Below are positions 937 to 35,411 of a DNA stretch of 37,310 nucleotides, one piece after another. Location: the NCBI GenBank assembly GCA_903923135.1, contig CAIXWN010000177.1, positions 1-37,310 on the forward strand, given 5' to 3'. The position numbers and the translations under genes are program-made. A model generated the notes under the pieces. It was not told where the DNA came from and ran no database searches. It saw only the letters and a list, made by a program, of their open reading frames with translations. How positions within the stretch are numbered: the first letter of the stretch is position 1; every line of letters starts with the position of its first letter. This DNA is from an uncultured Caulobacteraceae bacterium. Its GTDB lineage: Bacteria > Pseudomonadota > Alphaproteobacteria > Caulobacterales > Caulobacteraceae.

Positions 937-1601
937 GTGTCCGTCGTCTCGCCAAGGACCAGCCTGCCGCCTTCGAGTTCACGCCCGAAGGCCTGGAAAA
1001 GGCCGCGTGGTGGATCGCGAAGTTTCCCGCCGGCCGCCAGCAATCGGCGGTGATCCCCCTGCTCTGGCTGGTCCAGAAGCAGGAAGGCTGGGTGCCGGAA
1101 CCGGCGCTGCGCGTCGTCGCCTCCCTGCTGTCCATGCCGGTCATCCGGGTTCTGGAAATCGCCACCTTCTACACCATGTTCCAGCTCTCACCGGTGGGGA
1201 CGGTGGCGCACATCCAGCTGTGCGGCACGACGCCCTGCATGCTGCGCGGCGCCAATGCCCTCAAGGGTGTGCTGGCCGCCCGGGTCTGCGCCAAGGACCA
1301 CACCTCGGCCGATGGCCGCTTCTCCTGGGAAGAGGTTGAGTGCATGGGCGCCTGCGCCAACGCCCCCATGGCGGCGATCAACGACTATTACTACGAGGAC
1401 CTGACGCCGGAGGCGCTCGAGGCGCTTCTCGAGGCCTTCGCCGCCGGCCAGACGCCCGGGCCGGGCTCGGCCATCGGACGGCAGGGTGCGGCGCCGGAGG
1501 GCGGGGCTTTGACCCTGACTGATCCGACACTCTACGACGGCTCCCGGGCCAGGCCGCTGGGCGCCCTGCCCAATACGCCCGCGCCGGGGCCGGCCCAGTG
1601 A
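933..1601 (+). CDS. nuoE: NADH-quinone oxidoreductase subunit E
   Basis: This is the 24-kDa subunit of the NADH-dehydrogenase module, with a thioredoxin-like fold that holds the N1a [2Fe-2S] cluster. The four ligands are visible as C97-X4-C102 (CGTTPCML) and C137-X3-C141 ([10 protein letters not shown]). I chose TTG at 933, overlapping the nuoD stop as TTGA: it gives [14 protein letters not shown], and a GGGGAG Shine-Dalgarno lies at about 919-924. The frame is open much further upstream inside nuoD, but that part is only a shadow. The protein is 222 residues. About 50 residues after the cluster domain are Gly/Pro/Ala-rich and look disordered. The next gene starts with a 4-bp GTGA overlap. 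Confidence 0.95.
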
Positions 1602-25213: not shown

Positions 25214-25251
25214 GGAACGGCGGGGGCGGGCCAGGCGTTCATAAACGGTTC
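25214..25251 (+). promoter_or_regulatory. EcfG-type stress promoter overlapped by a GTTC-N7-GTTC repeat
   Basis: GGAAC at 25214-25218 and CGTT at 25236-25239 are separated by 17 bases, which fits the alphaproteobacterial general stress sigma factor consensus GGAAC-N16/17-CGTT (SigT in Caulobacter). Overlapping the -10 element is GTTC-ataaacg-GTTC (25237-25251), which matches the alphaproteobacterial LexA box format and also looks like an 11-bp-spaced direct repeat bound by OmpR-type regulators. The start codon of the glycine-zipper gene is 51 bases downstream. Binding is inferred from sequence only. Confidence 0.5.
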
Positions 25252-28817: not shown

Positions 28818-31475
28818 CTATCTGAAGCGGTACTGGAACTCCACGCCAAAGGTGCGCGGGGCCGTCAGGCTGGCCAGGCGGTCCGTCACTTCGGGACTGG
28901 TGTTCACCAGAACGCCCCCCGCGGAGTCATACCCCGTCGTGTTGAACAGGTTATCGGCGTAGGCGATGATGCTGTAGCGGTTCTTCACGTCGGTCCAGGT
29001 GGCCCGGAGGTTCACCTGGCTGTAGGCCGGCGCGAGATTGTACGACCGGTTGAACGGCGAGGAATATTCCTTGTCCTTCCAGACCAGGGTGCCGGACAGG
29101 GTCAGCGTGCCGGGCTCGAAGTGCAACCTGTAGAGCGCGTTGAGCGAGACCTTGTTCGCCGGCGCCTCGGCCAGGGACTGGCCCACCAGATTCTGCACGC
29201 CGCCGCCCTTGGCCAGGCATCCGCCTGAGGTGTTCGCTCCGGGCGCCACCGCCTGAGGGTCGGCCGTGTCCTGATAGCACTGGCCGTTCATGCTCGCGAT
29301 TGTCGACGAAATATAGGCGTAGTTCAGGCTCAGCGTCAGATTATCGATTGGCTGCCACAGGGATTCCAGTTCAAATCCGTAGGTGTGTGCCTCCGGAATG
29401 TTGATGATCTGGGTGTTGATCACGCCGCTGGCGCTCTGAACGCCCAGGGGTTGCTGGTCATTGTAGTAGAGATAATAGAAAGCCGAGACGTTCGCCTGGA
29501 AGGTGTGGCTGATCGATTTCTTGAAGCCGATCTCGAAGGCGTCGACGGTTTCCGGGGCGGTTTCTGGAGCCGGCGCCAGGATGCCGGAGTTGAAGCCTCC
29601 GGTCTTATAGCCGCGGCTGTATTTCGCGTAGGCCAGAGTTTCCGAGTCGGGTGTCCAGGCCAGGTTCGCCGTCCCCGTCCAGGCGCCCCAGCGGGCGTCG
29701 AGCGGCCGGATGCCCTTTCCGGTCGCCGGATCAATGTAGCAGGGCTTGGTGCCCGGATCGACGGTCGCCGGGCAGGATGTCGCGTCGAACGCCGGGGTGC
29801 CGGCCCCGAAGGTTCCCACGCCAAGGCCGAACTCCGAGGCGTTGAACAGCACGACGCGGAAGGCTTCCTGGCCGTACTTGCGGTCGTTGGAGTAGCGGAC
29901 CCCGCCGGTCAGTTTGAAGGTCGGGGCGAACTGCCAGTCCACCTGGGCGAAGGCCGCCTCGGACTCCTCGTGCAGCTTGGTGTCCTCGTTATAGGACGAG
30001 CCGGTTGGGTTCAGCGGGGCCGGCACGAAGCCGTGGCCGGTCAGCAGGGCGCCCAGCGACAACGGGGCCCGGACCTGGGGTTGGTTGGGGTCGTTCACGT
30101 TGATCGGCTGGTCATAGTATTCGTTATAGTAGTAGAGGCCGGCCAGCCACTGCAGCTTGCCCGATCCCGTGGACGAGAAGTCCAGTTCGTGACTGTAAAA
30201 GTTTTCGAACTCGTCGAAGGTGAAGTTCGTGTGGCCCGGGAAGACGGTCAGGTTGCCTGCGCCTTCAGGCCCTTGCAATTGGTAGGACTGCACGCCGCTG
30301 GACACGCCCTGGTTGTTCACCCACGGGGCGGTGAGCCGATAGGCGAAGGACTGGAATCCGAACAGGTATTTCACGTCGAAGGACGGGAAGTGGTAGGTCA
30401 CCGCCGTCGACACGAGGGCGTCCTTGCCCTGGTTGGCGTTGGACTTGAAGTCGGCGTCGAAATTCCTCAGCGCCGTGGCGTTGGGGTTTCCGACGGGGGT
30501 ATTGGGCAGGGTGACCACGCTGCCAGGCACGATGGTGTCGATCCCCGAGGCGCATCCCAGGCCGCCGCCCCCGCCGGGCAGGGCGCACAGGCCGTAGTTC
30601 TGATTGGGGAACAGAACGCTGGAGAACTCCCGTGTGTCCAGCGGGCCCAGAAGGGTTTCGGTGTGATAGCTGACGTTGTAGTCGCTCGTGGCCGCCTTGA
30701 TCCAGTAATCCAGGTTCTGGCCGATGTTGCCTTCGAGTTGAACCTCGACGTGATAGGCGTTGCCGTTGCCGCCCTGGGCGACGCTGCCGCCCTCTCTGGC
30801 CCCGTCGATGTTCTTGTAATAGCCGCCCTTCTGGTCGGTGTAGTTGCCGCCGATCCGGAAGCGCAGGGAGTCGGTGATCGGGCCGGATGCGGCGGCCTCG
30901 ACGAACCACTTGCCATAGCTGTCGACGCCCGTGCGGGCCTCCGCCTGGAGTTCCTTGGTCGGCCGTTTGGAAACGTAGTTGATCGCGCCGCCGTCGGCGT
31001 TGCGTCCGTATAGCGTGCTCTGCGGGCCCCGGAGCACCTCGATGCGGTCCACGAACAGGCTGTCGCTCTGCAGGATGGTCGAGGCGTTGGCGCCGTTGTA
31101 GATGCCGTCGACATAGACCGCGACGCCGGATTCAACCGCCAGGTTGTCGGTCTGACGGCCGACGCCGCGCACGTAGGGGCGGTTGTCGAAGGTCGAATAG
31201 GACAGACCCGGGGTATAGTCGGTGAGGTCCTGCACGGAGGCGATGCCCAGCAGGTCGCGCTGCTGCGCGGTGAAGGCCGAGATCGCGACCGGCGTCGTTT
31301 CGAGTTTTTCCGACCGCTTTTCGGCCACCACCACCAGTTCGCCGATCGCCGTGGCTTCGCCTGCCGGCGCGGCTGCCGTCGTCGCCGCCGCGGCGGCTGC
31401 GGCCTGGGCGGACCCGGCCAGGGTCCCGGCAAACAGAGCGACAGCCGACGCGCCGCACAGAAGCACAGTTTTCAT
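28818..31475 (-). CDS. TonB-dependent outer-membrane receptor
   Basis: The 885-residue protein is a 22-strand outer-membrane transporter. The signal peptide ends near residue 25 (GSAQA). A TonB-box-like stretch (GELVVVAEKR) is at ~45-54. The plug domain covers ~58-173, with VQDLTDYTPGLS, YVRGVGRQTD and RIEVLRGPQSTLYGRNADGG. The rest is beta-barrel, ending in VEFQYRFR. No ligand can be named; the plug is of the type common in Caulobacter and sphingomonads. ATG 31475 was chosen because GGGAGGAA lies just upstream and the signal peptide begins there; an ATG at 31532 would add 19 unsuited residues. The receptor is followed by the TPR-sulfotransferase gene. Confidence 0.92.
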   Translation of the reverse strand: MKTVLLCGASAVALFAGTLAGSAQAAAAAAATTAAAPAGEATAIGELVVVAEKRSEKLETTPVAISAFTAQQRDLLGIASVQDLTDYTPGLSYSTFDNRPYVRGVGRQTDNLAVESGVAVYVDGIYNGANASTILQSDSLFVDRIEVLRGPQSTLYGRNADGGAINYVSKRPTKELQAEARTGVDSYGKWFVEAAASGPITDSLRFRIGGNYTDQKGGYYKNIDGAREGGSVAQGGNGNAYHVEVQLEGNIGQNLDYWIKAATSDYNVSYHTETLLGPLDTREFSSVLFPNQNYGLCALPGGGGGLGCASGIDTIVPGSVVTLPNTPVGNPNATALRNFDADFKSNANQGKDALVSTAVTYHFPSFDVKYLFGFQSFAYRLTAPWVNNQGVSSGVQSYQLQGPEGAGNLTVFPGHTNFTFDEFENFYSHELDFSSTGSGKLQWLAGLYYYNEYYDQPINVNDPNQPQVRAPLSLGALLTGHGFVPAPLNPTGSSYNEDTKLHEESEAAFAQVDWQFAPTFKLTGGVRYSNDRKYGQEAFRVVLFNASEFGLGVGTFGAGTPAFDATSCPATVDPGTKPCYIDPATGKGIRPLDARWGAWTGTANLAWTPDSETLAYAKYSRGYKTGGFNSGILAPAPETAPETVDAFEIGFKKSISHTFQANVSAFYYLYYNDQQPLGVQSASGVINTQIINIPEAHTYGFELESLWQPIDNLTLSLNYAYISSTIASMNGQCYQDTADPQAVAPGANTSGGCLAKGGGVQNLVGQSLAEAPANKVSLNALYRLHFEPGTLTLSGTLVWKDKEYSSPFNRSYNLAPAYSQVNLRATWTDVKNRYSIIAYADNLFNTTGYDSAGGVLVNTSPEVTDRLASLTAPRTFGVEFQYRFR

Positions 31476-31636
31476 CGCGTTCCTCCCGGATTGACAAGCG
31501 GTTTTGGCACCACCCTTGTTTCGAATGTGCACCCCTAACTAAACGCCGTCAACTTGGAGTCATGACCAGGGCTCCATCGCGTTTTCGAGGACAGCATTCG
31601 TCGCCTGTCGGAGTCCTGCGATACTGCATCCGCGAA

Positions 31637-31654: not shown

Positions 31655-31778
31655 GCTGTTCCGATGTGTCCCCGGGCGCGTCGCTTCTCTCACGGTCGGG
31701 CCCCTGGACCGTCGTGGAGATGATGCGGCGCGGAATCGCATCCCCGACGGGAAGCGATCGTGAAAGCGCTTGACGCGC

Positions 31779-31809
31779 GAACAAAAGCGGAACAGAACAA
31801 ACACGGAAC
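31779..31809 (+). promoter_or_regulatory. Two tandem LexA (SOS) boxes upstream of sidA
   Basis: Two matches to the alphaproteobacterial LexA box, written here on the plus strand as GAAC-N7-GAAC (complement GTTC-N7-GTTC), lie one base apart: GAAC-aaaagcg-GAAC at 31779-31793 and GAAC-aaacacg-GAAC at 31795-31809. They directly follow TTGACG at 31770-31775 and would cover the spacer and -10 of a promoter, 25 bases before the sidA start. Repression by LexA until DNA damage is the expected outcome. Confidence 0.85.
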
Positions 31810-31834
31810 AACACTTTTTCGGGAGGCGGTCGGC

Positions 31835-31924
31835 ATGATCCGGTTTGCGCGGGAATCTCTGGCCTTGGCGTCGGTGGTCGGGTTTGTATGGATGGTGTGC
31901 CAGGTGGCGGGTTACGCGGGATAG
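31835..31924 (+). CDS. sidA: SidA-like SOS-induced cell-division inhibitor (29 aa)
   Basis: This very short gene encodes 29 residues, beginning MIRFARESLALA, with a basic N-terminus and one hydrophobic helix (about residues 8-25, SLALASVVGFVWMVCQVA). A strong Shine-Dalgarno, GGGAGG, sits at 31821-31826, eight bases before the ATG. Two LexA boxes lie just upstream. In Caulobacter crescentus, SidA is a 29-residue inner-membrane peptide induced by DNA damage that blocks division through FtsW, and its gene, as I recall, neighbours dnaE. Length, topology, promoter and position agree. I have not aligned it to the reference sequence. It ends 49 bp before dnaE, so some readthrough into dnaE on SOS induction is possible. 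Confidence 0.85.
   Translation: MIRFARESLALASVVGFVWMVCQVAGYAG

Positions 31925-31973: not shown

Positions 31974-35411
<3,438 letters not shown>

Follow-up and report, generated by a model that had tools for sequence, protein, structure and literature searches.

A probable sidA gene directly before dnaE in a Caulobacteraceae bacterium, and similarly placed SOS-boxed micro-ORFs in other Alphaproteobacteria

Background

The locus described here raises the question of whether an open reading frame (ORF) of 29 codons, preceded by LexA boxes and followed by dnaE, encodes an SOS division inhibitor of the SidA type, and whether comparable ORFs precede dnaE outside the Caulobacteraceae. The DNA analyzed is a stretch of 37,310 nucleotides from an uncultured Caulobacteraceae bacterium, which we call the window. 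Caulobacter crescentus SidA is described as a 29-amino acid inner membrane protein that acts on FtsW (PMC4211646). The start codon of its gene is among those corrected by ribosome profiling and related data (PMC4117421), and because it needed correction, genes like sidA must be regarded as easily misread.

Results

The window ORF and its surroundings

The elements of the locus, in order along the window, are:

31770..31775, + strand, TTGACG, a possible -35 element just before the LexA boxes, judged from its letters
31779..31793, + strand, LexA box 1, GAACAAAAGCGGAAC, an exact GAACN7GAAC
31795..31809, + strand, LexA box 2, GAACAAACACGGAAC, an exact GAACN7GAAC, 16 nt after box 1
31821..31826, + strand, ribosome binding site GGGAGG, recognized by sequence, 8 nt before the ATG of sidA
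31835..31924, + strand, sidA, 29 codons plus TAG, probable single-helix SOS division inhibitor (family match, conservation, pN/pS)
31974..35411, + strand, dnaE, replicative DNA polymerase III alpha, 1145 aa (curated models)

The local description given by a first-pass annotation of the window holds. The ORF has exactly 29 codons, a ribosome binding site precedes it, two LexA boxes lie upstream of and outside 31835-31924, and the ATG of dnaE is found 49 nt past the sidA stop. The single membrane helix of that description is likewise predicted from the 29-aa translation (MIRFARESLALASVVGFVWMVCQVAGYAG), whose most hydrophobic 17-residue stretch, LALASVVGFVWMVCQVA (residues 9-25), has a hydropathy of 2.09. 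An in-frame GTG at 31760 could extend the ORF to 54 aa, but conservation among relatives starts at the ATG at 31835 and not at the upstream GTG. A sigma-70 promoter scan found none at TTGACG or elsewhere in the sidA upstream region, and a terminator scan returned one terminator-like site, at chance level, inside the sidA ORF.

The dnaE product scored 1381.9 bits against the replicative Pol III alpha model NF004226 (cut-off 1002). Assignment as an error-prone polymerase was rejected, the corresponding model giving 583.2 bits against a cut-off of 939; since the replicative model was passed and the error-prone model failed, the gene is taken to encode the replicative enzyme. To the left of sidA, a minus-strand gene (28818-31532) resembles those of TonB-dependent receptors, although no model among the best 25 of 26 matches was over its cut-off. 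In several relatives its place upstream of sidA is occupied by what we take, by eye, to be a LolD-type ABC gene.

Exact GAACN7GAAC occurs three times in the window against a shuffle mean of 0.67, and because 6 of 100 shuffles of the window reach three, the box count alone is weak evidence. The third site, GAACCGTTTATGAAC, lies on the minus strand at 25237-25251. The 15-mer of box 2 is present in a single copy in the genome. One-helix micro-ORFs have 24 start codons on the two window strands (21 on the plus and 3 on the minus strand), and only the one at 31835 has a box, with one mismatch allowed, ahead of it.

Membership of the SidA family

The SidA identity put forward in the first-pass annotation is borne out by the NCBIfam equivalog NF033228.1, 'cell division inhibitor SidA' (div_inhib_SidA), which the window peptide matches over residues 1-26 with 65.2 bits (cut-off 35, E 3.5e-18); in a six-frame search of the genome with the same model it scores 62.9 bits. 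The existence of a model made for SidA makes it doubtful that the gene is likely unannotated, as had been supposed, and novelty cannot be claimed for a family already known and named by NCBI. The window SidA is rightly described as an orthologue in the expected place.

Across 390 Caulobacteraceae genomes NF033228 gave matches at E <= 0.1 in 353, a threshold that permits about 39 chance matches at most, and passed its cut-off in 209; the remaining 37 had no match at E <= 0.1. Among 14 named control genomes, four matched, Caulobacter vibrioides included, one of them over the cut-off. At E <= 1, a tblastn search with the 29 residues gave matches in 92 of the 299 genomes from the order. All matches below E 0.02 fell within the window's own family, and no other copy in this search was more than 81% identical over 26 residues. 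One genome of the family, rated 100% complete (G201, genus g2), showed no SidA in either search (tblastn, E <= 1; NF033228, E <= 0.1). The 29-aa query had no match in 50,697 phage records, no Pfam match and no PHROGs match, and its two poor plasmid matches (E 4 and 9) both fell within other genes. A divergent form, MVSALHNMLSFAAVTGFVFLMCHVVSLAA, is present in Asticcacaulis-like genomes; it scores 17.4 bits, below the cut-off of 35.

A second SidA-like ORF, MTRLIRETLAFAAAATFVWAVCVGALVVGDLFRSLPA, was seen at L057 (G017:C3, about 315111-315185; locus 1462-1575, minus strand). It scores 29.7 bits, again below 35, its ATG overlaps the stop codon of the preceding ORF, and it is near a ParB-like gene, with no dnaE in the 3-kb locus. 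Perhaps this is a copy of SidA carried by a mobile element.

The family match bears on the reading of the ORF as a small hydrophobic SOS toxin of the DinQ type, which would harm the membrane generally and would not inhibit the divisome. DinQ is a toxic peptide with a single helix and under SOS regulation (PMC3567139), and the window ORF shares one helix, SOS boxes and a length of about 30 residues with this type. On the other hand, the window peptide passes the SidA equivalog model, and single changes in FtsW and in FtsI relieve the effects of C. crescentus SidA (PMC4211646), and we consider a toxin of this kind very improbable.

Conservation and selection within the family

We compared 102 Caulobacteraceae loci, the window included, in which some genomes are represented twice and 83 peptides are distinct. 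The reading frame proved to be kept in relatives, a SidA ORF preceding dnaE in 102/102. The same-strand dnaE lies downstream in 60/60 loci chosen by SidA similarity; conversely, a SidA ORF, accepted if it scored at least 15 bits with a model made from 12 of these sequences, lies upstream in 42/42 loci chosen by DnaE similarity. The order sidA-dnaE is found in named contigs of Caulobacter, Phenylobacterium, Brevundimonas and Asticcacaulis. Peptides of 29 aa make up 78 of the 102, the others having 28, 30 or 31 residues, a count that favors 29 because the start nearest 29 codons was chosen where several were open. A LexA box within 130 nt is exact in 76/102 loci and present with at most one mismatch in 102/102, and in 106 of the 126 listed spacings between neighboring boxes (<= 1 mismatch) the distance is 16-18 nt.

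By column counts, R3, R6, E/D7 and FVW at 17-19 are conserved. The purifying selection that the first-pass annotation had suggested looking for is evident: the in-frame pN/pS for 46 close pairs is 0.237, whereas the other two frames give 1.37 and 2.35 and the lowest value among 200 neutral simulations was 0.67. The sidA reading frame is under purifying selection.

A chance ORF might be suspected from a length of only 29 codons in a window that holds 503 start codons opening ORFs of 22-48 codons (174 on the plus and 329 on the minus strand). This explanation is already contradicted by the frame-specific constraint over the 46 pairs, the NF033228 match and the position kept in every locus, and its chance of being right is negligible. 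The ORF could also be a cis-acting leader peptide through which dnaE translation or transcription is tuned, the protein having no activity of its own. Its position might suggest this, since the two genes share a strand with 49 nt between them and the ORF precedes dnaE at every one of the 102 loci. Against this, the residues listed above are conserved with a pN/pS of 0.24, plasmid-expressed C. crescentus SidA blocks division (PMC4211646), and the gap between sidA and dnaE varies from 20 to 325 nt when its end is set where the dnaE match begins, some large gaps arising where that match starts inside dnaE or after a divergent N-terminus. We regard the leader peptide as improbable. The reading that we prefer, with a probability of about 0.93, is that the window ORF is sidA and encodes a LexA-controlled one-helix inhibitor of FtsW that halts division after DNA damage.

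LexA control and the FtsW target

The C. crescentus SOS box is given as GTTCN7GTTC (PMC9578287), and the GAACN7GAAC before sidA is the same motif read on the opposite strand. One LexA domain is shown for this genome, and about 50 nt upstream of its match lies the gene's own box, GAACACCCAGAGAAC, of the same form as the sidA boxes. Genome-wide there are 139 copies of GAACN7GAAC against 21 of a reversed control. By analogy with the C. crescentus work, sidA would be under LexA control in cells.

Two FtsW/RodA matches were considered for the target. Since L275 is flanked by genes that read, by eye, like murD and murG, we take it to be FtsW; the first-ranked match, L274, was rejected as FtsW and taken as RodA, as it adjoins a PBP2-like gene (by eye). 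Changes at FtsW residues 31 and 145 suppress SidA in C. crescentus, where a third suppressor position is 246 (PMC4211646). The candidate has A31 and F145, as the C. crescentus protein does; with a numbering that hangs on the listed start codon, its position 246 is I, with A at 245 and 248.

SOS-boxed micro-ORFs before dnaE outside the family

Regions upstream of dnaE in other Alphaproteobacteria were searched with a filter that accepts an ORF of 22-48 aa with a 17-residue hydropathy of at least 1.5 and an exact box 15-110 nt upstream. Its thresholds were set after the first sightings of the pattern outside the Caulobacteraceae, and 60 later class loci were scored with the thresholds fixed. Applied to the 102 Caulobacteraceae loci, the filter recovers 60 when the box must be exact and 82 when it may have one mismatch, and so overlooks true cases. 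The sampling was not random, and the counts for each set, with an exact box and then with one mismatch allowed, are:

Named contigs, the 38 that rank highest by DnaE match outside the family, from 80 retained: 10/38 and 11/38
Class draw, the 78 genomes not of the family whose DnaE is closest, from 387: 22/78 and 23/78
Order draw outside the Caulobacteraceae, 40 loci taken from 46: 23/40 and 31/40
Further class loci, 60 drawn from the better-scoring listed part of 274 matches, one of which (L321) has only 203 bases: 5/60 and 6/60

In the two class draws, the cases with an exact box come from 12 numbered taxonomic families (joined tables). Named contigs and numbered genomes may overlap, and removal of identical regions left 214 of 216. 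An exact LexA box is present in 66 of these 214 distinct regions, and in 60 of the 66 boxed regions the box is followed by a one-helix micro-ORF of 22-48 aa, where random box positions would give 18.7. The opposite strand of the boxed regions has 0 micro-ORFs in place, and 33 of the 148 regions without an exact box have some one-helix micro-ORF in 600 nt. The exact pattern is absent from 154/214 regions. Control windows from the flanks of L072-L151, largely coding, gave the pattern in 0/1514 cases with an exact box and in 1/1514 at one mismatch, and 20 Markov shuffles of the first 156 regions gave 0 exact cases and, at one mismatch, a mean of 0.6 and at most 2. Over 18 close pairs of the peptides pN/pS is 0.172 in frame, against 1.26 and 2.51 out of frame and a neutral minimum of 0.53.

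Examples of the peptides are MRRVVQDVSAATAVLGFAWMIAMWGSVLGAA (L237, Maricaulis type), MTNFLKDFLALSSVVGVLWAVTVWSAIVGSALT (L173) and MIRVLVQEAAALASIALFVAMIGLWAGVITGV (L149, Ancylobacter polymorphus); L131 is a Parvibaculum form. Further SOS-boxed one-helix micro-ORFs before dnaE were seen at L114, L116, L118, L125 and other loci. By eye, and uncounted, many of the peptides have a charged pair, KD, QD or RE, just before the helix, where SidA has RE.

Ten of the outside peptides, one of them trimmed at its N-terminus, were compared with NF033228: none reached 35 bits, the Ancylobacter peptide scored 13.2, and the other nine had no SidA match. A model built from the Caulobacteraceae peptides placed 28 of 65 outside peptides above the 1% level of 1300 region-shuffled decoys. 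The test is weak: only a single real peptide (18.8) scores higher than the top decoy (16.8), and near-duplicates are numerous among the 28.

Discussion

The window gene itself is one more SidA, and the interest of the analysis lies in the dnaE-linked SOS micropeptides outside its family. By their place, control and form, the most likely reading of these peptides is that they stop division. We propose a class-wide family that would include SidA and go back to common descent. In its full form, the idea is of an old alphaproteobacterial micropeptide, LexA-controlled, with one helix and placed before dnaE, of which SidA is the branch in the Caulobacteraceae and the other members are unrecognized SOS division inhibitors; to this we give an even chance. 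The peptide sequence of such an old system would have diverged until the family model no longer recognized it, with box, helix, size and place persisting, and its members would halt division in the SOS response of Maricaulis, Parvibaculum, Ancylobacter and other alphaproteobacteria. In a narrow look at the literature, we met no description of an SOS division inhibitor from any alphaproteobacterium other than Caulobacter. The pattern offers candidates of 30-45 residues in named strains such as Ancylobacter polymorphus DSM 2457 (L149). If the proposal is true, many lineages of the class have retained a DNA damage checkpoint gene next to the gene of the replicative polymerase.

For the window gene, the C. 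crescentus work suggests that LexA, bound to the two tandem promoter boxes, would hold sidA off. After DNA damage RecA would become active, LexA would be cleaved and the 29-residue SidA would be made. To judge from its sequence, the protein would insert as one helix, with the N-terminus (R3, R6, E7) probably in the cytoplasm and the C-terminus outside. As carried over from C. crescentus, SidA may then bind FtsW in the FtsW/FtsI/FtsN complex of septal cell wall synthesis and keep the complex inactive, so that division would wait for DNA repair.

The closest known system is C. crescentus SidA, to which the window peptide is likened through the family model NF033228 and with which it has 29 residues, one helix and LexA boxes in common. 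C. crescentus DidA is likewise a small one-helix inhibitor of the FtsW/I/N complex; DidA, however, is induced by DriD and not by LexA and binds FtsN (PMC4211646), whereas the window ORF has LexA boxes and the SidA match. YneA of Bacillus and SosA of Staphylococcus (PMC13396833, PMC6851548), as well as SulA of E. coli (PMC4211646), are SOS-induced division inhibitors that are likened to it by their job alone, and in a passage of PMC4211646 that does not mention SosA the yneA and sidA genes are called unrelated to sulA.
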